Shown here piece by piece: positions 22,494-49,774 of a stretch of DNA of 64,000 nt. Source of the stretch: Geodermatophilus ruber (GTDB taxonomy: Bacteria > Actinomycetota > Actinomycetes > Mycobacteriales > Geodermatophilaceae). Within the stretch, counting starts at the first letter, position 1. Each line of letters begins with the position of its first letter. A model generated the notes under the pieces. It was not told the origin of the DNA. It saw nothing but the letters and a program-made list of their open reading frames with translations, and made no database searches. The stretch is taken from assembly GCF_900114385.1 (NCBI RefSeq), contig NZ_FOSW01000005.1, positions 234,116 through 298,115 of the forward strand, in the 5' to 3' direction. The translations under genes and the position numbers were made by a program.

Positions 22494-23501
22494 TCAGCGG
22501 ATGACGACGACGTGCTCGCCGCGGGGCACGAACTCGCCGATCACCGGGGCACCGGGGACCTCCCCGCCGAGCAGCAGCCCGCCGGAGGTCTGCGCGTCGG
22601 CCAGCAGCAGCGCCTCGTCCTCCGGCACCGCGGACAGGTCGGTGTGCGGGCGCACCCAGTCCAGGTTGCGCCGGGTGCCACCGGAGACGAACCCGCCGGC
22701 CAGCGCCTCCCGGGCGCCGGCGAGGTAGGGGACGGCGGCCGCGTCGACCACCGCGGTCACCCCGCTGGCCCGGGCCATCTTGTAGAGGTGGCCGAGCAGC
22801 CCGAAGCCGGTCACGTCGGTGCCCGCGCGGATGCCCGCGGAGACCGCGGCCCGGCCGGCGTCCCGGTTCAGCGCGGTCATCGAGGCGACCGCCTCCTCCG
22901 ACACCTCGCCGGTCGCCTTCATCCGGCTGTTGAGCACCCCGACACCCAGCGGCTTGGTCAGCGACAGCGGGGTGCCGGCGACGGCGGCGGAGTTGGTGAT
23001 CACCCGGTCGACGTCGACCACGCCGGTGACCGCCATGCCGTACTTCGGCTCGGGGTCGTCGATGGAGTGCCCGCCGCCGACGTGACAGCCGGCCTGCTGC
23101 GCGGTCTCCAGCCCGCCGCGCAGGACCTCGGCGGCGAGCTCGGCCGGCAGCACGTCCCGCGGCCAGCCGAGCAGGTTGACGGCGACGACCGGGGTGCCGC
23201 CCATCGCGTAGACGTCGGACAGCGCGTTGGCCGCGGCGATCCGGCCGAAGGTGTAGGCGTCGTCGACGACCGGGGTGAAGAAGTCGGTGGTCAGCACCAG
23301 CCCCTGCCCCCCGGCGATGCGGACCACGGCCGCGTCGTCGCCGTCGTCGAGCCCGACGATCAGTTCGGCGGCCGGATCGGCCGGCCCGGTCGCGGTCAGC
23401 CCGGCGACGACCGCCTCCAGCTCGCCGGGAGGGATCTTGCAGGCGCAGCCGCCGCCGTGCGCGTACTGGGTCAGCCGGATCCGGGGAGGCGCGGTGGTCA
23501 C
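22494..23501 (-). CDS. selD: Selenophosphate synthase SelD
   Basis: 335-aa enzyme that makes selenophosphate from selenide and ATP, the selenium donor for Sec-tRNA. The N-terminal active-site motif GGGCACK has Cys where some SelD proteins carry Sec. The ATP-binding signatures LIVGLDDGDDAAVVRI and GGGHSIDDPEPKYGMAVTG are clear. The start is GTG 23501, with a TACGGT -10 6 nt upstream (23508-23513). It is divergent from the Sec tRNA only 23 bp away, completing the set SelD, SelC, SelA, SelB. Confidence 0.95.
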   Translation of the reverse strand: MTTAPPRIRLTQYAHGGGCACKIPPGELEAVVAGLTATGPADPAAELIVGLDDGDDAAVVRIAGGQGLVLTTDFFTPVVDDAYTFGRIAAANALSDVYAMGGTPVVAVNLLGWPRDVLPAELAAEVLRGGLETAQQAGCHVGGGHSIDDPEPKYGMAVTGVVDVDRVITNSAAVAGTPLSLTKPLGVGVLNSRMKATGEVSEEAVASMTALNRDAGRAAVSAGIRAGTDVTGFGLLGHLYKMARASGVTAVVDAAAVPYLAGAREALAGGFVSGGTRRNLDWVRPHTDLSAVPEDEALLLADAQTSGGLLLGGEVPGAPVIGEFVPRGEHVVVIR

Positions 23502-23524: not shown

Positions 23525-23620
23525 GGAGGCGTCAGGGTGCCTGGTGGCCCCCGCGGCCTCTAAAGCCGACGTGGCCGAGCAGCTCGGTCAGGCGGGTTCG
23601 ATTCCCGTCCGCCTCCGCCA
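23525..23620 (+). tRNA. selC: Selenocysteine tRNA with anticodon CUA (reads UAG)
   Basis: 96-nt tRNA with encoded CCA. It has a GGAGGCG acceptor arm closing on CGCCTCC, a long D arm with a four-base loop (TGGT), an 8-bp variable arm (TGGCCGAG/CTCGGTCA, loop CAG) and a T arm GCGGG-TTCGATT-CCCGT with the same G-U closing pair as E. coli tRNA-Sec. These are Sec-tRNA marks. The anticodon loop (23558-23564) is C-T-CTA-A-A, so the anticodon at 23560-23562 is CUA, where the canonical tRNA has UCA. It should therefore insert selenocysteine at UAG. Minor flaws: one T-C mismatch in the D stem, a G-A at the outer anticodon-stem pair and an unpaired eighth acceptor position. Confidence 0.93.
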
Positions 23621-23671: not shown

Positions 23672-24391
23672 TCAGGCCGGCTGGGCCGCCCGCGCCTGGA
23701 GCAGGCCGACCACCCGCTCTGCCGCCTCCCGGCTGGAGGCCGGGTTCTGCCCGGTGACGAGGTCACCGTCGACCACCACGAACGGCGCCCAGGCGGGCCC
23801 GCTGCGGAACCGGGCGCCGGCCGCGCGCAGCCGGTCCTCGAGCAGCCACGGTGCCTTGTCGGCGAGGCCGGCCTGAGCCTCCTCCTCGTTGGTGAAGGCC
23901 GTCAGCTCGCGGCCTACGAAGGCCCACGTGCCGTCGGGCCGGACCGCCGGCAGCAGCCCGGCGGGGCCGTGGCAGACCGACGAGACGATCCTGGCGGCGT
24001 CGAGGAAGCCGAGGAGCAGCCGGCCGAGGTCGGTGGAGACGGCGAGATCCTCCATCGGACCGTGGCCGCCGGGGATGAAGATCGCGTCGTACTCGCCCGG
24101 GGACTGGTCCTCGAGCCGCGCCGGGGCGGCCAGAGCCCCGGACAGCGCGTCGAGCTCCGCGCGCAACTGGGCGGCGCGCTCCTCACCACCGGCCATCTCC
24201 GGGTCGAGGCTGCGCTGGTCCACGGTCGGCGGGGTCCCACCCGGGGTCGCGATGACGACGTCGATGCCGGCCTCGCGGAAGATCCCGTGCGGTACGAGGA
24301 ACTCCTCGGCCCAGAAGCCGGTGGGATGGCGGGTGCCGTCCTTGAGAGTCCAGTGGTCGGCTGCGCTCAGGACGATCAGGACTGCGGGCAT
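23672..24391 (-). CDS. DJ-1/PfpI family protein (HchA-like)
   Basis: 239-aa class I glutamine-amidotransferase-like protein. The nucleophile elbow VSSVCHGPAGLL carries the conserved Cys near residue 142, and GHGPMEDL and the N-terminal LIVLSAADHW match the HchA/Hsp31-like branch, whose members act as glyoxalase III or deglycases or chaperones. ATG 24391 is preceded by GAGGAGAG. It lies between the Sec tRNA and selA on the opposite strand and has no evident link to selenium; the active-site residue is Cys, with no in-frame UAG. Confidence 0.85.
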   Translation of the reverse strand: MPAVLIVLSAADHWTLKDGTRHPTGFWAEEFLVPHGIFREAGIDVVIATPGGTPPTVDQRSLDPEMAGGEERAAQLRAELDALSGALAAPARLEDQSPGEYDAIFIPGGHGPMEDLAVSTDLGRLLLGFLDAARIVSSVCHGPAGLLPAVRPDGTWAFVGRELTAFTNEEEAQAGLADKAPWLLEDRLRAAGARFRSGPAWAPFVVVDGDLVTGQNPASSREAAERVVGLLQARAAQPA

Positions 24392-24571: not shown

Positions 24572-25894
24572 ATGGTGGAGAACGTGCGGGCCGACCGGCG
24601 GCGACAGGTGCCCCGCACCGACACGCTGCTCGCCGACCCGCAGCTCGCCGAGGCCGCCGAGCGGCTGGGGCGGGAGCTGGTCAAGGCCACCGTGCAGCGG
24701 GTGCAGCAGCGGATCCGGGAGGGCGCCGTCCTGCCCGCCGCCGCGGTGGACGCCGTCCTGGCGGTGCTGCCGGCGACGGCGAGCAGCCTGCGCCCGGTCC
24801 TCAACGCCACCGGGGTGCTGGTGCACACCAACCTCGGCCGGGCGCCGCTGTCGGCGGCCGCGGTCGCGGCGGTCGCCGCCGCGAGCGGCACCACCGACGT
24901 GGAGCTCGACCTGGCCACCGGGCGCCGCGGGCCCCGGGGGGAGGCGGCGCTCGCGGCGCTGCTGGCCGCGGTCCCGGCCGCCGAGGCCGCGCTCGTGGTG
25001 AACAACTGCGCGGCCGCCCTCGCCCTGGTGGCCACCACCCTCGGCGGGGAGCTGGTCATCGCCCGCGGAGAGCTGGTCGAGATCGGCGACGGATTCCGCA
25101 TCCCCGAGCTGCTCGGCGCCACCGGCGCCCGGCTGCGCGAGGTCGGGACGACGAACCGGGTGACCCTCGGCGACTACCGCGACGCCCTGCACGCGGAGAC
25201 CGGCGCGGTGCTCAAGGTGCACCCGTCGAACTTCGTCGTCCGCGGCTTCACCCGGGCCGTGCCGATCGCCGAGCTCGCCGCCGGGCTGGCCGGCCGCGGG
25301 GTGCCGCTGGTGGCCGACGTGGGCTCGGGTCTGCTCCGCCCGCATCCCGCGCTGCCCGACGAGCCGGACCTGCAGACCACCCTCGCCGACGGCGCCGACC
25401 TGGTCCTCGCCAGCGGTGACAAGCTGCTCGGCGGCCCGCAGGCCGGGATCGTGCTGGGCCGCGCCGACCTGGTGCAGCGGCTGCGCCGGCATCCGCTGTA
25501 CCGGGCGCTGCGGGTCGACAAGACGACACTGGCCGCCCTGGAGGCGACGCTGCGCGGGCCGGTGCCGCCGGTGCCGCAGATGCTCGCCGCGGACGTCGCC
25601 GGGCTGCGCCGCCGGGCCGAGGCGCTGGCGGCCCGGCTGGCCGCGGCGGGGCTCGACGCGGTCGCCGTCGACTCGGAGGCGCGGGTCGGCGGGGGAGGGG
25701 CGCCGGAGCACCCGCTGCCCAGCGCGGCGGTGTCGCTGCCCGAGGCGTTCGCCGACCCCCTGCGCGCCGGCACCCGCCCGGTGGTCGGCTACCGGGCCGG
25801 CGACCGGACGCTGCTGGACCTGCGCAGCGTGCCGCCCGCGGCCGACGGGGAGCTGGCCGCCGCGGTCCTGGAGGTGGCGGCGCGATGGACGTGA
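24572..25894 (+). CDS. selA: L-seryl-tRNA(Sec) selenium transferase SelA
   Basis: 440-aa PLP enzyme that converts Ser-tRNA(Sec) to Sec-tRNA(Sec) using selenophosphate. The N-terminal tRNA-binding helix region (RRRQVPRTDTLLADPQL), the core NATGVLVHTNLGRAPLS and the PLP Lys in ASGDKLLGGPQAG (~284) are clear. Length fits the decameric bacterial form. ATG 24572 follows the -10 box by 7 nt; GTG 24566 or 24575 are nearby alternatives. It overlaps selB by 10 nt. Confidence 0.95.
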   Translation: MVENVRADRRRQVPRTDTLLADPQLAEAAERLGRELVKATVQRVQQRIREGAVLPAAAVDAVLAVLPATASSLRPVLNATGVLVHTNLGRAPLSAAAVAAVAAASGTTDVELDLATGRRGPRGEAALAALLAAVPAAEAALVVNNCAAALALVATTLGGELVIARGELVEIGDGFRIPELLGATGARLREVGTTNRVTLGDYRDALHAETGAVLKVHPSNFVVRGFTRAVPIAELAAGLAGRGVPLVADVGSGLLRPHPALPDEPDLQTTLADGADLVLASGDKLLGGPQAGIVLGRADLVQRLRRHPLYRALRVDKTTLAALEATLRGPVPPVPQMLAADVAGLRRRAEALAARLAAAGLDAVAVDSEARVGGGGAPEHPLPSAAVSLPEAFADPLRAGTRPVVGYRAGDRTLLDLRSVPPAADGELAAAVLEVAARWT

Positions 25895-27627
25895 TCGCGA
25901 CAGCGGGCCACGTCGACCACGGCAAGTCCCGCCTCGTCCGCGCCCTCACCGGCATGGAGCCCGACCGGTGGGAGGAGGAGCGCCGCCGCGGCCTGACCAT
26001 CGACCTCGGCTTCGCCTGGACCACGCTGCCCTCGGGCCGCCGGCTCGCGGTCGTCGACGTCCCCGGGCACGAGCGGTTCATCGGCAACATGCTCGCCGGC
26101 GTCGGCTCGGCGCCCGCGGCCCTCGTCGTGGTCGCGGCCGACGACGGCTGGTCGGCGCAGACCGCCGAGCACGTGGCCGTCCTCGACGCCCTGGGGGTGC
26201 GGCACGCGCTGCTCGCCGTCACCAAGGCCGACCTCGCCGACCCCGGGCCCGTGCTCGCCGACGTGCGGGAGCGGCTGGCCCGGACGTCGATGGGGGAGGT
26301 GCCCGGCATCGCGGTCAGCGCGGTGACCGGTGCCGGCGTCCCGGAGGTCGTGGCGGGCCTGGAGGTCCTGCTCGCCGGCCTGCCCGCGCCGGACCGGGCC
26401 GCGCCGGTGCGGCTGTGGATCGACCGCGCTTTTCCGATCCGGGGCGCGGGCACGGTGGTCACCGGCACCCTGGCCGCGGGCAGCGTGGCGCCCGGCGACC
26501 GGTTGCAGCTGGGTGACCGGGAGGTCGGTGTCCGCGCGGTGCAGTCGCTCGGCGAGCCGGTCGAGCGGGCCGGGGCCACTGCCCGCGTGGCGCTCAACCT
26601 GCGCGGCATCGGCGTGGAGGAGCTGGCCCGCGGCGACGCGCTGCTGACGCCGGGCGCGTTCCGGTTCACCGGCGAGGTCGACGTCACCCTCGGGGCCGAG
26701 CCCGAGCGGCTGCCGGCCGAGGCGATCGTGCACGTCGGTTCGGCGGCCGTGGCGGCGCGGCTCCGCCCCCTGGAGGGGGCGGCGGTGCGGCTGCGGCTGG
26801 CCACCCCGCTGCCGCTGCGGGTCGGCGACCGGCTGCTGCTGCGGGACCCCGGTGCGCGGCGGGTGCTGGGCGCCGACGTCCGGGACGTCGACCCGCCCGA
26901 GCTGCGCCGCCGGGGTGCCGCCCGGGCGCGGGCGGCCGAGCTCGCGGCGCAGGCACCCGGGGCCGCCGGCGCCGCCGCCGACCTGGCCCGCCGCCGCGTC
27001 GTCCGGGCCGCGGACTTCGCCGCGATGGGCTGGCCGGTGCCCGAGGGGGCGACGCAGGCGGGGCCGTGGCTGCTCGCCCCCGGGCTGGCCGACGAGCTCG
27101 CCGCGGGGCTTCCCGCGCTGGTCGGGCGGTACCGGCAGCAGCACCCGCTGGAGGCCGGGCCGCCGGTGGCCGTCGTCCGCCGGGAGCTGGGCCTGCCCGA
27201 CGACGAGCTGCTGCGGGCCGTGGTGCGGCCGCCGCTCGCGCTGCGGGAGGGCCGGGTGGCGGTTGCCACCGCCGGCCTGCCGCCCCGGGTGCAGCAGGCC
27301 GTCGACGGCATCCGTGCGCGACTGGCCACCGAGCCGTTCGCCGCCCCCGAGGCCGGGGAGCTGACCGGGGCCGGGCTGGGCCCGCGGGAGCTGGCCGCCG
27401 CGGTCCGCGACGGGCAGCTGGTGAAGATCGCCGAGGGGGTCTACCTGGCGCCGGGCGTGGAGGGGGAGGCCGCTGTCCGCCTGGCCGGCGTGGCGGCACC
27501 GTTCTCGCTCAGCCAGGCGCGGTCGGCCTGGGGGACCACCCGGCGGGTCGCCGTCCCGCTGATGGAGTGGCTCGACGCCCGCGGTGTCACCGAGCGGCTG
27601 CCCGACAACACCCGCCGGCTGCGGTAG
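25885..27627 (+). CDS. selB: Selenocysteine-specific elongation factor SelB
   Basis: 580-aa GTPase that delivers Sec-tRNA to SECIS-marked codons. G1 GHVDHGKS (8-15), G3 DVPGHE (~56-61) and G4 TKAD (~113) are followed by EF-Tu-like domains II and III. The C-terminal winged-helix array (from ~370 to the end, closing with MEWLDARGVTERLPDN) would bind the SECIS hairpin. In this genome it must work with a CUA tRNA and UAG codons. ATG 25885 overlaps selA by 10 nt; GTG 25891 would give a 4-nt overlap instead. The gene itself ends in TAG, followed 11 nt later by a perfect hairpin. Confidence 0.95.
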   Translation: MDVIATAGHVDHGKSRLVRALTGMEPDRWEEERRRGLTIDLGFAWTTLPSGRRLAVVDVPGHERFIGNMLAGVGSAPAALVVVAADDGWSAQTAEHVAVLDALGVRHALLAVTKADLADPGPVLADVRERLARTSMGEVPGIAVSAVTGAGVPEVVAGLEVLLAGLPAPDRAAPVRLWIDRAFPIRGAGTVVTGTLAAGSVAPGDRLQLGDREVGVRAVQSLGEPVERAGATARVALNLRGIGVEELARGDALLTPGAFRFTGEVDVTLGAEPERLPAEAIVHVGSAAVAARLRPLEGAAVRLRLATPLPLRVGDRLLLRDPGARRVLGADVRDVDPPELRRRGAARARAAELAAQAPGAAGAAADLARRRVVRAADFAAMGWPVPEGATQAGPWLLAPGLADELAAGLPALVGRYRQQHPLEAGPPVAVVRRELGLPDDELLRAVVRPPLALREGRVAVATAGLPPRVQQAVDGIRARLATEPFAAPEAGELTGAGLGPRELAAAVRDGQLVKIAEGVYLAPGVEGEAAVRLAGVAAPFSLSQARSAWGTTRRVAVPLMEWLDARGVTERLPDNTRRLR

Positions 27628-28568: not shown

Positions 28569-29807
28569 ATGAACACCGTCCTGCCCCTGCTGCCGGCCGG
28601 CCCGGCCCGGGATCCGGCCCCGGCGCCCTTCGAGCTCCCCGGCAGCGCCCGCGAGGGCCTGCGCGCCACCCCGTTCGGGCTCTACGTGCACGTGCCCTTC
28701 TGCGCGACCCGCTGCGGCTACTGCGACTTCAACACCTACACCTCCGACGAGCTCGGGCCGGGGGCCAGCCGGGCCCAGTACGCCGGCACCGCGATCGCCG
28801 AGCTGCACCGCGCCGCGCGGACCCTCGGCCCCGACCTCCCGACCGTCTCCACGGTGTTCGTCGGCGGCGGCACGCCCACGCTGCTGCCCGCCGAGGACCT
28901 CGCCGCCGTCCTCGCCGCGGTCCGCGAGCTGTTCCCGGTGGCCGACGACGTGGAGGTCACCACCGAGGCCAACCCGGAGACGGTGACCCCGGCGTCGCTC
29001 GAACGGCTGCGGGCGGCCGGGTTCACCCGGGTGAGCCTGGGCATGCAGTCCGCCGCCGAGCACGTGCTCGCCGTCCTGGACCGCCGGCACACCCCCGGTC
29101 GGGCCGTCGAGGCGGCGCGCGAGGCGCGGGCCGCCGGCTTCGCGCACGTCAACCTCGACCTCATCTACGGGACGCCGGGGGAGACGCAGGCCGACTGGGC
29201 CGCATCGCTGGATGCCGTCCTCGCCGCGCCGGTCGACCACGTCAGCGCCTACGCGCTCATCGTCGAGGAGGGCACCCGGCTGGCCCGCCGGATCGCCCGG
29301 GGCGAGCTCCCGATGCCCGACGACGACGTCCTGGCCGACCGCTACGAGCAGGCCGACGCGACCCTCCGCGGTGCCGGCTTCGACTGGTACGAGGTCTCCA
29401 ACTGGGCCACCGGCGACGCGGCCCGCTGCCGGCACAACGAGCTGTACTGGGCCAACGCCAACTGGTGGGGCGTCGGCCCGGGCGCGCACAGCCACGTCGG
29501 CGGGCTGCGCTGGTGGAACGTCAAGCACCCGGCGGCCTACGCCGACCGGCTGCTGCGCGGGGAGAGCCCGGCGCAGGACTCCGAGCTGCTGGGCGCCGCC
29601 GACCGCGCGCTGGAGACGATCATGCTCGGCATCCGGCTGCGGGAGGGGCTGCCGCTCACCGCGCTCTCGCCGACCGGCCGCGCCCGCGCCGCCGACGCCG
29701 CTGCCCGCGGCCTGCTGGACCCGGCCGCCCACGCGGCCGGCCGGGCCGTCCTCACCGACGGCGGACGGCTGCTCGCCGATGCCGTGGTCCGCGACCTCAC
29801 GGACTAG
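28569..29807 (+). CDS. hemW: Radical SAM heme chaperone HemW
   Basis: 412-aa radical SAM protein. HVPFCATRCGYCDF supplies the CxxxCxxC iron-sulfur ligands near residue 46, followed by FVGGGTPTLL, TTEANPETVTP and the HemW C-terminal domain (RCRHNELYW, GPGAHSHV). HemW, formerly called oxygen-independent coproporphyrinogen oxidase, inserts heme into target proteins. ATG 28569 follows GGGAGCAG. The stop is TAG, one of several ordinary UAG terminators in the window. Confidence 0.93.
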   Translation: MNTVLPLLPAGPARDPAPAPFELPGSAREGLRATPFGLYVHVPFCATRCGYCDFNTYTSDELGPGASRAQYAGTAIAELHRAARTLGPDLPTVSTVFVGGGTPTLLPAEDLAAVLAAVRELFPVADDVEVTTEANPETVTPASLERLRAAGFTRVSLGMQSAAEHVLAVLDRRHTPGRAVEAAREARAAGFAHVNLDLIYGTPGETQADWAASLDAVLAAPVDHVSAYALIVEEGTRLARRIARGELPMPDDDVLADRYEQADATLRGAGFDWYEVSNWATGDAARCRHNELYWANANWWGVGPGAHSHVGGLRWWNVKHPAAYADRLLRGESPAQDSELLGAADRALETIMLGIRLREGLPLTALSPTGRARAADAAARGLLDPAAHAAGRAVLTDGGRLLADAVVRDLTD

Positions 29808-45137: not shown

Positions 45138-45592
45138 GTACCGGTCCCTACCTCTACGACGAGGGCCCCACGTCGCTGCACACCGGCACCCCCCGCCGCC
45201 GGAACGGGCTGCTGCTGGCGCTCCTCGGCGGCACCGTGGCCGTCGGGGTCGGCATGGTGGTGACCCTGCCGCTGGTCAAGGGCAGCCCCGACGAGCAGGC
45301 GCGGGAGGTCACCGGCGTCTTCCTCGAGGCGATGGCGCAGGGGGACCGGGAGACCGCGCACCAGCTCCTCTGCCAGGAGGAGCGTGCCCGGCTGGCCGCC
45401 GACGCCATCGCCGCGGAGTACACCCGGCCGGGCACCGCCGAGATCGCCGGGATCGAGGCCGGTGAGCGCGGTGACTCACCCGCCCGGCTGGTCGAGGTGC
45501 GCTGGACCGACGGCGGCACGACGGCGACCGCGACGTTCACGGTGGTCAACCAGGACGGGCCGCGCGTCTGCGGCGTCTCCCCGGCCGGCTGA
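45134..45592 (+). CDS. Single-helix membrane protein with NTF2-like extracytoplasmic domain
   Basis: 152-aa protein. A short cytoplasmic N terminus (to ~23), one membrane helix LLLALLGGTVAVGVGMVVTLPLV, then a ~100-residue domain (AREVTGVFLEAMAQGDRETAHQLLC ... TATATFTVVNQDGPRVCGV) with two cysteines. The layout resembles NTF2-like/DUF4878 envelope proteins. It is translationally coupled to dus; function unknown. Confidence 0.68.
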   Translation: MSTGPYLYDEGPTSLHTGTPRRRNGLLLALLGGTVAVGVGMVVTLPLVKGSPDEQAREVTGVFLEAMAQGDRETAHQLLCQEERARLAADAIAAEYTRPGTAEIAGIEAGERGDSPARLVEVRWTDGGTTATATFTVVNQDGPRVCGVSPAG

Positions 45593-45766
45593 ACCGGGGC
45601 GCCTCCGGCTCGCGGCCCCGCGCCTCCTGCGTCAAGATCGACTCGCAGCCCCGCGTCGTCGTCCTTCCCGATCCAGGAGGCGTGCCGCGGGGTACCAACC
45701 GGCGGTGCCCGGTGCGGCACCATGCCTGCACGCGAAGGGCACCGGCGAGGACGCGGAGGTGCACAC

Positions 45767-48478
45767 GTGACCAGCGGTACCGGGCGGACGACCTGGGTCT
45801 ACGAGTTCAGCCAGGGCAGCAAGGACCAGAAGGACCTGCTGGGCGGCAAGGGCGCGAACCTGGCCGAGATGACCAACCTCGGGCTGCCCGTGCCGCCCGG
45901 GTTCACCATCACCACCGACGCCTGCCGCTACTACCTCGAGCAGGGCAGCACCCCGCCGGACCTCGCCGACCAGGTCACCGAGCACCTGAGCGCGCTGGAG
46001 AAGGCGATGGGCAAGACCCTCGGGGACCCCGCCGACCCGCTGCTGGTCTCGGTGCGCTCGGGCGCGGCGGCCTCCATGCCCGGGATGATGGAGACCGTCC
46101 TCAACGTCGGGCTCAACGACGAGTCGGTGCGCGGCCTGGCCGCGCAGTCGGGCAGCGAACGCTTCGCCTGGGACTCCTACCGCCGGCTGATCCAGATGTT
46201 CGGCAAGACCGTGCTGGACATCGACGGGGAGCTGTTCGCGCACGCCCTCGACGAGGTGAAGCGGGAGCAGGGCACCGACTCAGACCTCGACCTGGACGCC
46301 GCGCACCTCGAGGACGTCGTCGGCCGGTTCAAGGCGATCGTGGCCGAGCAGTGCGGCCGGGACTTCCCGCAGGACCCCCGCGAGCAGCTGGATCTCGCCA
46401 TCAACGCCGTCTTCGACTCGTGGAACTCCGAGCGGGCGATCCTCTACCGCCGCCGCGAGCGCATCCCCGGCGACGCGGGCACCGCGGTCAACGTCGTCGC
46501 CATGGTCTTCGGCAATCTCGGGCCCGACTCGGGTACCGGCGTGGCCTTCACCCGCGATCCCGGCAGCGGCGCGCAGGGGGTGTACGGCGACTACCTGCAG
46601 AACGCGCAGGGGGAGGACGTCGTCGCCGGCATCCGCAACACCGTGCCGCTGCCCGAGCTCGAGCGGATCGACAAGGGCGCCTACGACGAGCTGCTGCGGA
46701 CCATGGAGCGGCTGGAGTCGCACTACCGCGACCTGTGCGACATCGAGTTCACCGTCGAGCGCAACAAACTGTGGATGCTGCAGACGCGGGTGGGCAAGCG
46801 CACCGCGGCCGCTGCGTTCGTCATCGCCACCCAGCTGGTCGACGAGGGCCTCATCGACATGGACGAGGCCGTCCGCCGGGTGACCGGCGACCAGCTGGGG
46901 CAGCTGATGTTCCCGCGGTTCGTCTCCGGCGGTGACGCCCAGGAGCTCACCCAGGGGATGAACGCCTCGCCCGGCGCCGCCGTCGGCAAGGCGGTGTTCT
47001 CCTCGGAGACCGCGGTGGAGTGGGCCGGCCGCGGGGAGAAGGTGGTCCTCGTCCGGCGGGAGACCAACCCCGACGACCTCGCCGGGATGATCGCCGCCGA
47101 GGGCGTGCTGACCAGCCGCGGTGGCAAGACCTCGCACGCGGCCGTCGTCGCGCGCGGGATGGGCAAGACCTGCGTCTGCGGCGCCGAGGAGCTGACCGTC
47201 GACACGGCGGGGAAGAAGTTCACCGCGCCCGGCGGCACGGAGGTCACCGAGGGCGACGTGATCTCCATCGACGGGTCGACCGGCAAGGTGTGGCTCGGCG
47301 AGGTGCCGGTCGAGCCGTCGTCGGTCGTCCGCTACTTCGAGGGCGAGATCGACCCCGAGTCCGACGAGGCCGACGACCTGGTGCGCAGCGTGCACCGGAT
47401 CCTCACCCACGCCGACTCCCGCCGGCGGCTGGGCGTGCGCACCAACGCCGACACCCCGGAGGACTCCGCCCGAGCCCGGCGCTTCGGCGCCCAGGGCATC
47501 GGGCTGTGCCGGACCGAGCACATGTTCCTCGGCGAGCGCCGGCAGCTGGTGGAGAAGCTGATCCTCGCCGAGGGGGACGACGAGCGGCAGGCCGCCCTCG
47601 ACGCCCTGGAGCCGCTGCAGCGGCAGGACTTCCTGGAGATCTTCGAGGAGATGGACGGGCTGCCGGTGACGGTGCGGCTGCTGGACCCGCCGCTGCACGA
47701 GTTCCTGCCCGACCTCACCGACCTCTCGGTCCGGGTGGCGGTGGCCGAGGCGCAGGGCCACCCCGACGAGGCCAACCTGCGGCTGCTGGCCGCCGTCCGC
47801 CGGCTGCACGAGCAGAACCCGATGCTCGGGCTGCGCGGGGTGCGGCTCGGCCTGGTCGTGCCCGGGTTGTTCGCGATGCAGGTGCGGGCCATCGCCGAGG
47901 CCGCGGCGGAGCGGAGGAAGGCCGGCGGCGACCCGCGGCCGGAGATCATGATCCCGCTGGTCGGCGCGGTGCAGGAGCTCGAGGCGATCCGGGAGGAGTC
48001 CGAGCGGGTGCTCGCCGAGGTGGCGGAGGCCCGCGGGGTCGACGTCCCGGCGCTGATCGGGACGATGATCGAGGTGCCCCGGGCCGCGCTGACCGCGGAG
48101 GAGATCGCGCAGTCGGCGGAGTTCTTCTCCTTCGGCACCAACGACCTCACCCAGATGACCTGGGGCTTCTCCCGGGACGACGTCGAGGCGGCGTTCTTCC
48201 ACGCCTACCTGGACAAGGGCATCTTCGGGATCTCCCCGTTCGAGTCGCTGGACCTCGACGGCGTCGGTCGGCTGGTGCAGATCGGCGTCGAGGGCGGCCG
48301 TCGGGCCCGGCCCGACCTCAAGCTCGGGATCTGCGGCGAGCACGGCGGCGACCCCGACTCGGTGCACTTCTTCCACGAGGTGGGCCTGGACTACGTGTCC
48401 TGTTCGCCGTTCCGGGTGCCGGTGGCCCGGCTGGAGGCCGGCCGGGCGGCGCTGGGGGCCGAGCGCGCCGGCTCCTGA
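45767..48478 (+). CDS. ppdK: Pyruvate phosphate dikinase
   Basis: 903-aa enzyme interconverting pyruvate, ATP and phosphate with PEP, AMP and diphosphate. ATP-grasp domain (residues ~1-350, GGKGANLAEMTNLGLPVPPGF), phosphohistidine swivel with RGGKTSHAAVVARGMGK near 450, and PEP-utilising TIM barrel (LCRTEHMF, GTNDLTQMTWGFSRDD, CGEHGGDP). GTG 45767 follows GCGGAGG. It may serve gluconeogenic PEP supply or diphosphate-linked glycolysis. Single gene, no PPDK regulatory kinase nearby. Confidence 0.95.
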   Translation: MTSGTGRTTWVYEFSQGSKDQKDLLGGKGANLAEMTNLGLPVPPGFTITTDACRYYLEQGSTPPDLADQVTEHLSALEKAMGKTLGDPADPLLVSVRSGAAASMPGMMETVLNVGLNDESVRGLAAQSGSERFAWDSYRRLIQMFGKTVLDIDGELFAHALDEVKREQGTDSDLDLDAAHLEDVVGRFKAIVAEQCGRDFPQDPREQLDLAINAVFDSWNSERAILYRRRERIPGDAGTAVNVVAMVFGNLGPDSGTGVAFTRDPGSGAQGVYGDYLQNAQGEDVVAGIRNTVPLPELERIDKGAYDELLRTMERLESHYRDLCDIEFTVERNKLWMLQTRVGKRTAAAAFVIATQLVDEGLIDMDEAVRRVTGDQLGQLMFPRFVSGGDAQELTQGMNASPGAAVGKAVFSSETAVEWAGRGEKVVLVRRETNPDDLAGMIAAEGVLTSRGGKTSHAAVVARGMGKTCVCGAEELTVDTAGKKFTAPGGTEVTEGDVISIDGSTGKVWLGEVPVEPSSVVRYFEGEIDPESDEADDLVRSVHRILTHADSRRRLGVRTNADTPEDSARARRFGAQGIGLCRTEHMFLGERRQLVEKLILAEGDDERQAALDALEPLQRQDFLEIFEEMDGLPVTVRLLDPPLHEFLPDLTDLSVRVAVAEAQGHPDEANLRLLAAVRRLHEQNPMLGLRGVRLGLVVPGLFAMQVRAIAEAAAERRKAGGDPRPEIMIPLVGAVQELEAIREESERVLAEVAEARGVDVPALIGTMIEVPRAALTAEEIAQSAEFFSFGTNDLTQMTWGFSRDDVEAAFFHAYLDKGIFGISPFESLDLDGVGRLVQIGVEGGRRARPDLKLGICGEHGGDPDSVHFFHEVGLDYVSCSPFRVPVARLEAGRAALGAERAGS

Positions 48479-48606
48479 TCGGGCTGCCCTCCCGCCGGGA
48501 TCAGCGGTGGCCGTCGGTCGCGTGTCGCGGAGCCGGTTGCCGGAGGTCACGGTGGGGTGGCGGGACGCACCGTCCCCGCGCGCCTCGAACCGACAGCACC
48601 GCGTGG

Positions 48607-48612
48607 TACCCA
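48607..48612 (+). promoter_or_regulatory. Leaderless -10 box (TACCCA) of the YdcF-like gene
   Basis: TACCCA(T) lies 6 nt before GTG 48619. It is a weaker TANNNT match than the others, since its last base is A rather than T. Confidence 0.4.
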
Positions 48613-48618
48613 TGACGC

Positions 48619-49248
48619 GTGGGGTCACGTGTCGGGAGCCTGGTGGGCAGGGCCGTCGGCGCCCTGGTGCTCGCGTTCGTGCTGATGGTCAGCTCCACCG
48701 CCGCGGCGATCTGGTGGACGGCGCGGCAGGACTCCCGCCCGTCGTCCGATGCGATCGTCGTGCTGGGGTCGGCGCAGTACAACGGCGTGCCGTCGTCGGT
48801 CTTCGAGGCGCGGCTCGAGCACGCCCTGTCGCTCTACGAGGACGGCGTCGCGCCGGTGGTGGTGACCGTGGGCGGCAAGGCGGCCGGTGACCAGTTCACC
48901 GAGGCCGAGGCCGGCCGGGACTACCTCGCGGGCGCGGGGATGCCCGCCGAGGCGCTGCTGGCGGTGCAGGAGGGCGTCGACACGCTGGAGAGCATGCGGG
49001 CCGTCGCGGCGGCCTTCGCCGAGCAGGGCTGGTCCCGCGCCGTGCTGGTGACCGACCCGTGGCACGCCATGCGCGCGGAGCGGATGGCCGAGGACGCCGG
49101 GATCGAGGCGGAGAGCTCACCGACCCGGCAGGGCCCGGCGGTGCAGACCCGCACCACGCAGTTCCGCTACATCCTCCGCGAGACTGCTGCCTACCTGGTG
49201 TACCGCGTGACCGGCGAGAGCGTCGCCGGCGCACCGGGGATCGGCTGA
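48619..49248 (+). CDS. YdcF/ElyC-like DUF218 membrane protein
   Basis: 209-aa protein with one N-terminal membrane helix (VGALVLAFVLMVSSTAAAIWW) and a DUF218 domain: DAIVVLGSAQYNG, then VTVGGKAAGDQFTEAEAGRDYL and VLVTDPWHAMRAERM. Relatives (ElyC, SanA, YdcF) act in cell-envelope polysaccharide metabolism. Chromosomal order usually has dgt before dnaG in actinobacteria; this gene stands there instead. GTG start. Confidence 0.82.
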   Translation: MGSRVGSLVGRAVGALVLAFVLMVSSTAAAIWWTARQDSRPSSDAIVVLGSAQYNGVPSSVFEARLEHALSLYEDGVAPVVVTVGGKAAGDQFTEAEAGRDYLAGAGMPAEALLAVQEGVDTLESMRAVAAAFAEQGWSRAVLVTDPWHAMRAERMAEDAGIEAESSPTRQGPAVQTRTTQFRYILRETAAYLVYRVTGESVAGAPGIG

Positions 49249-49261
49249 GCGAGGAGGAGCC

Positions 49262-49774
49262 GTGCTCGAGGTGGGCAAGGCCGGCTCGGCCGGCGTCGAG
49301 AAGGGCGTGCTGCCCGTGCTGCGCGGCGGCGCGGTGGTCGCGACCGTCCGCGCGTCGAACTGGAAGGAGGCGGCCACGGCCGTCGTCGGGGACCGCGAGT
49401 GGCTCTTCGCCAACCGGAAGCGGGAGCTGACCGCCCGCTGGGCGGTCGACCCGGAGGAGTCGGTCCGCCTGCGGGCGCGGCAGACCTCCTTCTGGAAGGG
49501 CACCTGGGAGGTCGACCTCGGGGGGGCGCCCCTGCGGCGCGAGACCGTCTCCTTCTGGAAGGGGACGCACCGGTACTCGACCGAGGGGCGGGTCGTTGCC
49601 GAGGTGGGCTCCACCGGCGGCTGGTCGCCGCGGCCGACCCTGAGCGCCGAGGACTCGCTGCCGCTGGAGGCCCGGGTCTTCCTGCTCTGGCTGGAGGTCG
49701 TCATCAACCGCCGGAACGCCGCGACGATCTCTGCGGGCGCCGGCGCCGCGGTCATCGTGGGTGGGAGCAGCTGA
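49262..49774 (+). CDS. Conserved protein of unknown function upstream of dnaG
   Basis: 170-aa protein with a strong ribosome site (GAGGAGGAG) before GTG 49262. It is rich in Trp and short beta segments with two near-repeats (TSFWKGTWEVDL and VSFWKGTHRYST). The pattern recalls tubby/LURP-one-like barrels, but this is a guess. The C terminus ends in a hydrophobic Ala/Gly stretch. It is coupled to dnaG by TGATG, so it is co-expressed with the primase. Confidence 0.7.
   Translation: MLEVGKAGSAGVEKGVLPVLRGGAVVATVRASNWKEAATAVVGDREWLFANRKRELTARWAVDPEESVRLRARQTSFWKGTWEVDLGGAPLRRETVSFWKGTHRYSTEGRVVAEVGSTGGWSPRPTLSAEDSLPLEARVFLLWLEVVINRRNAATISAGAGAAVIVGGSS

Follow-up and report, generated by a model that had tools for sequence, protein, structure and literature searches.

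The canonical route to selenocysteine (Sec), of the Escherichia coli fdhF type, combines a tRNASec (SelC) bearing a UCA anticodon, the proteins SelA, SelB and SelD, and a hairpin directly after an in-frame UGA codon. On plasmids of Tsukamurella (NZ_LR134459.1) and Arthrobacter (NZ_CP110115.1), selB, selA, a UCA tRNASec and selD likewise lie together and adjoin genes for formate dehydrogenase (FDH); one of the two plasmids (L306, L307) is typed as conjugative. In Geodermatophilus and Blastococcus, Sec was reportedly confirmed by labelling in 2016 by Mukai and colleagues. UAG serves for Sec in some bacteria, as stated in the accessible parts of PMC8124441 and PMC10778597. The closest described system is that of the Geodermatophilaceae. 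According to the available text of PMC5330540, Mukai and colleagues described CUA tRNASec in this family with FDH and UGSC-motif selenoproteins, and Santesmasses et al. (2017) added an AhpC with TAG for Blastococcus saxobsidens DD2. In the available portion of a 2026 review of the prokaryotic selenoproteome (PMC13188914), there is no match for 'Geodermatophil'.

The window analysed here, a stretch of 64,000 nucleotides from the soil actinobacterium Geodermatophilus ruber, contains a CUA tRNASec beside selA, selB and selD. Judged from sequence, it almost certainly belongs to a system that is predicted to place Sec at selected UAG codons within the frames of three or more genes, among them two FDH alpha subunits and one AhpC-like peroxiredoxin. 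It shares with the published Geodermatophilaceae system, as far as the available text of PMC5330540 describes it, the CUA tRNASec, a Sec-site TAG in FDH and in an AhpC, and the family itself, and differs in coming from another species. The kind of system is already published and G. ruber is a further example; the original prediction had credited UAG-coded Sec to Mukai and colleagues (2016), in agreement with the account in that text. Relative to the same text, the counts over 112 genomes, the UCA/TGA relatives within the family and the covariation of the hairpin are new. The tRNASec structure, SelA, SelB, SelD and the hairpin directly after the codon are also those of the canonical system, but the anticodon is CUA instead of UCA and the Sec codon UAG instead of UGA; the Tsukamurella and Arthrobacter cassettes differ in being UCA-type and plasmid-borne.

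The tRNASec gene and its neighbourhood

The gene selC, with encoded CCA, occupies positions 23525-23620 of the window on the forward strand. Rfam tRNA-Sec (RF01852) matches at 23525-23616 (+) and scores 66.6 bits, where the gathering threshold is 47 (E 2.3e-11), which bears out its first identification as a Sec tRNA; 3′ of this match, a discriminator G and the encoded CCA run to 23620. ARAGORN reports the span 23525-23620. Some positions of the RF01852 model stems are unpaired in this tRNA, including two at the base of the acceptor arm. The anticodon CTA (CUA), which pairs with UAG, lies at 23560-23562 (+) according to ARAGORN (tRNA position 36), the Rfam alignment and the sequence. On direct reading the loop is C-T-CTA-A-A, just as originally given, and CTA stays as the anticodon when the covariance model of Rfam tRNA-Sec and ARAGORN are applied. 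It is not a chance variant, because the same anticodon arm recurs in 101 of the 112 family genomes. A search with RF01852 over the source genome (4.99 Mb, 32 contigs, 99.66% complete) found no second tRNASec and no UCA tRNASec. The remaining four matches are three tRNA-Ser and one tRNA-Leu and were rejected as tRNASec, among them a tRNA-Ser on contig C30 that scores above the cut-off (49.7 bits).

Three sel genes surround the tRNA, and the view that they are intact is borne out by scores above the NCBIfam equivalog cut-offs for all three. The gene for selenide water dikinase, selD, lies at 22494-23501 on the reverse strand (TIGR00476, 384.2 bits, cut-off 125) and encodes a Cys form with the motif GGGCACKIPP. 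On the forward strand, selA, for L-seryl-tRNA(Sec) selenium transferase, spans 24572-25894 from an ATG start (TIGR00474, 415.8 bits, cut-off 267.9), and selB, for the Sec-specific elongation factor, spans 25885-27627 and ends in an ordinary TAG stop (TIGR00475, 280.5 bits, cut-off 242.25).

Pyrrolysine systems have an amber-reading tRNA, and ARAGORN labels the window tRNA as tRNA-Pyl with anticodon CTA. The probability that it is a pyrrolysine tRNA, with UAG coding for pyrrolysine, is nevertheless negligible: the Rfam match to tRNA-Sec exceeds the gathering score and no other family matches at that place, the gene sits among selD, selA and selB, and the UAGs occupy catalytic positions for Sec/Cys in FDH and AhpC-like proteins. 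In addition, ARAGORN gives the same Pyl label to a CUA tRNASec of Coriobacteriia that stands beside selA and selB (see below). Due to the Pyl label and to selenoprotein genes that look broken, standard annotation will miss the system.

Two smaller features complete the neighbourhood. Between tRNASec and selA, a DJ-1/PfpI-like gene, named by eye, lies at 23672-24391 (-); in Geodermatophilus sp. LHW52908, selA follows the tRNA directly (L139). ARAGORN also calls a tRNA-Ala (CGC) at 24922-24994 (+), inside selA, which is probably false because it is absent from the Rfam matches.

In-frame UAG codons, hairpins and ordinary stops

A search of the source genome for in-frame TAG at Sec positions, the check on which the original prediction had turned, yields two FDH genes and one AhpC-like gene. 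Among seven PF00384 matches, two FDH-type frames each contain exactly one TAG, both at ENQARI*HSATVPGLG, and save for this codon they are open over 1327 and 1089 codons. Among seven AhpC-TSA matches, one contains a single TAG, at FYVFDFGGY*GTELSQ, the peroxidatic site. TAG seems to have both meanings in this last gene, because a second TAG (L152, 1414-1416) apparently terminates the frame; a convergent open frame ends at 1402, 11 bases from this TAG.

An RNA hairpin lies 3′ of both FDH TAGs, with the loop GGUCU at +22 to +26, a register that we take to be that of E. coli fdhF. Its conservation was analysed in 31 loci, comprising both source genes plus 29 relatives, which are the top loci of the family FDH search. 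The TAG occupies the same codon and alignment columns 19-29 are invariant in all 31. At pair 18-30, where both members are third codon positions, the 19 distinct rows show G-U (12), C-G (6) and U-A (1). Compared with 500 shuffles, the paired cells, the two-sided changed cells and the covariation score were matched by none, while two of the five measures did not rise above the shuffles (pairs with two-sided changes, 483/500; further pair types, 154/500); the lower helix is paired in only 91.7% of cells. A SECIS-like hairpin directly 3′ of UAG is present for FDH, and the AhpC-like TAG is followed by a smaller hairpin with GU in its loop, which is less clear.

From these elements we infer Sec insertion in G. 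ruber along the following lines. The CUA tRNA would be charged with serine by SerRS, and SelA, using selenophosphate from SelD, would convert Ser-tRNA to Sec-tRNA. SelB would then bring the latter to a UAG that has a SECIS hairpin immediately 3′, where insertion would compete with release factor 1, and UAGs without such a hairpin would remain stops.

TAG is indeed still used as a stop in the window. It terminates selB (27627) and three genes ending at 29807, 34042 and 42331, the four that the original prediction had listed and from which the names hemW and rsmE are taken. In a crude call of 40 window genes, which overlooked hemW and rsmE, the stops are 35 TGA, five TAG and no TAA. UGA is therefore the main stop, and a move of Sec to the rarer stop may lessen conflict. 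It is very unlikely that UAG has been reassigned throughout the genome rather than recoded at chosen sites. The CUA tRNA fits such a reassignment, but TAG ends selB, the three other window genes and 5 of the 40 crudely called genes, the AhpC-like frame itself seems to end in a second TAG, and SelB exists together with a hairpin after the FDH UAGs. Since TAG stays an ordinary stop, recoding of UAG must be local, as had been argued from the window; the hairpin at the FDH sites agrees with this.

Predicted Sec codons across the Geodermatophilaceae

RF01852 was searched in 112 Geodermatophilaceae genomes, and the anticodon arm was read with a strict pattern in 110 fetched loci. These comprise 101 CUA loci in 100 genomes (G037 has two), seven UCA loci, one extra UCA locus in LHW52908 and one tRNA-Ser. 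With the source genome included, a CUA tRNASec is found in 101/112 genomes and UCA only in seven, which belong to genera g5, g6 and g7. The search found no tRNASec in four genomes (G067, G071, G097 and G098), all 72-82% complete.

The family was also searched for FDH with a 250-residue query across the Sec site (E 1e-40), giving 124 rows in 100 genomes. Six rows stop short of the Sec site (four in G079, one each in G034 and G098); the 118 that span it, from 98 genomes, all contain one TAG and no other internal stop. At this threshold no match was found in 12 genomes: the nine of g5-g7, plus three that are incomplete. In G079, a CUA-type genome, the FDH genes (C4 and C12) are in pieces with stops or frame breaks, reflecting either decay or sequence error.

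Frames interrupted by a stop, and the fragmented FDH of G079, could be taken to mean that the FDH genes are pseudogenes or products of sequencing error and the tRNA a relic. Such a reading is exceedingly improbable in view of the single TAG, with no other stop, in 118/118 site-spanning matches, its position at the same codon in 31/31 aligned loci, the otherwise open frames of 1327 and 1089 codons, and the retention of CUA tRNASec over most of the family.

Genera g5-g7 have another FDH type, in which TGA occurs at NRT*HAPSVVGL (G070, G071, G072 and G074; the match in G072 runs across five TGA and possibly contains a frame error). As no tRNASec was found in G071, UCA and TGA occur together in three genomes. 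The anticodon and the FDH codon thus match on both sides of a switch within the family, CUA with TAG and UCA with TGA. Because the two FDH types are different genes, the switch shows at the level of the system; it is not seen as a codon change within a single orthologous gene.

For SelA, a tree with 32 rows was built, in which the full-length named CUA loci were sampled at every third one and joined by the window, LHW52908, four UCA members of the family, the two plasmids and Coriobacteriia. The tree places 25 CUA rows on one branch (99/99) and the four family UCA rows on another (99/99), with the window SelA among Geodermatophilus rows; on sequence grounds, this is the pattern that one switch inside the family would give. 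A natural codon swap can in this way be placed on the family tree, with UCA/TGA on one side, CUA/TAG on the other and the same enzymes retained. This retention suggests that SelB and SECIS are indifferent to which stop codon is recoded, a property that designers of UAG-Sec systems need.

Two records deserve separate mention. Blastococcus endophyticus CPCC 205247 (NZ_JABGCI010000003.1; L093, L107) has two different CUA tRNASec about 57 kb apart on one contig. SPQJ01000003.1 (L027), titled 'Bacillus sp. AZ43' (UNVERIFIED_ORG), is probably mislabelled because it contains a Geodermatophilaceae tRNASec and a SelA that falls among Blastococcus rows.

CUA tRNASec in Coriobacteriia and a UCA tRNASec in Geodermatophilus sp. 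LHW52908

A pattern for CUA tRNASec was run over a contig collection that by its description covers 84,980 species. It gave 92 stretches, of which 89 have the anticodon arm of the Geodermatophilaceae, two (L076, L083) were rejected as not being tRNASec, and one is from Coriobacteriia. The latter, in a metagenome-assembled genome (MAG) of about 1.5 Mb (JAUNNF010000009.1; L098, L188), is a CUA tRNASec of 64.2 bits that follows selA and selB in the vicinity of genes for glycine reductase. When TAG is translated as Sec, grdB (TST*GTCTRCGA) scores 672 bits with TIGR01917 (selenoprotein B, cut-off 602.2) and grdA (CFV*TSAGAMDLENQ) scores 274.6 bits with NF040748 (selenoprotein A, cut-off 130); the folds after these TAGs are weak. 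Its family was sampled with 79 genomes, in which 47 matches reach at least 62 bits. Forty-six are UCA (45 read by the strict pattern and L203 by eye), and only JAUNNF010000009.1 is CUA. Its tRNA has a median identity of 73.3% to 45 kin and of 72.3% to 30 Geodermatophilaceae tRNAs, and its SelA shares about 33-35% identity with the best-matching Geodermatophilaceae SelAs and forms a very long branch of unsure placement in the SelA tree. No relative of the grd protein was found among viral contigs. This case, resting on one MAG, suggests that the swap from UGA to UAG has occurred more than once.

LHW52908 has a resident UAG set, consisting of a CUA tRNASec, selD, selA and selB 91, 84 and 83% identical to those of the window, and an FDH with TAG. 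At the end of its chromosomal contig C17, there is a second tRNASec, with anticodon UCA (L138:1173-1263, reverse strand; RF01852, 81.8 bits). Divergent from it and 315 bases away lies an AhpD-like gene (L138:1579-2157, forward strand; PF02627, CMD/AhpD type, 28.2 bits, cut-off 23). Its frame has one TGA, at residue 98 (NRCFY*MESHAEF) in the second position of a CxxC motif, with a SECIS-like hairpin (GCAGA-GUU-UCUGC) after it at approximately +14 to +30. Scanning C17 for stop-split coding frames yielded nothing convincing and overlooked this gene, which was seen by reading the sequence. The other PF00384 and AhpC-TSA matches of the genome contain no TGA.

In the stretch 850-2900 the GC content is 62%, against 74-78% in pieces of contig C17, and IS-type transposases are nearby. 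In the 112 family genomes the AhpD-like protein has one close match, that of LHW52908 itself, the next best by E-value being 40% identical. In tblastn searches of C17 with the two plasmid SelA/SelB/SelD sets, nothing better than E 0.05 was found for selA, selB or selD, and the module would therefore borrow SelA and SelB from the host. C17 was considered as a contaminant contig and this was rejected, since its region 45400-49400 has matches in 26/26 Geodermatophilus genomes, LHW52908 included (the others show 77-91% identity in their strong rows), which makes C17 Geodermatophilus chromosome. A false assembly join may lie between this region and the UCA module.

Because a UCA tRNASec stands beside a TGA-containing AhpD-like gene in a genome with a resident CUA set, LHW52908 likely uses two Sec codons. 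We consider it somewhat more probable than otherwise that the UCA module runs on the host SelA and SelB, with a single SelB then acting at UAG as well as UGA, and, as a separate matter, that a Coriobacteriia lineage made its own switch from UGA to UAG. If LHW52908 does use two Sec codons, it offers a natural setting in which to see whether the same SelB can handle both, and what happens when a variant code encounters imported genes that still follow the old one. Both the two-codon case and the Coriobacteriia CUA tRNASec with TAG in grdA and grdB look new: no report of two Sec codons in one organism, or of UAG-Sec in Coriobacteriia, was recognised in titles and abstracts, a scope outside which most subscription literature lies.

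AhpD-like selenoproteins as such are already in the literature, including the available text of the 2026 review (PMC13188914). In the best 120 of 233 homologs of the LHW52908 protein, the Sec column is occupied by Cys 60 times, by Trp 59 times and by Leu once. The Trp probably arises where metagenome gene calling translated TGA with code 4, and its occurrence in 59 of the 120 best-matching database proteins suggests that public gene calls read Sec-UGA in this way.
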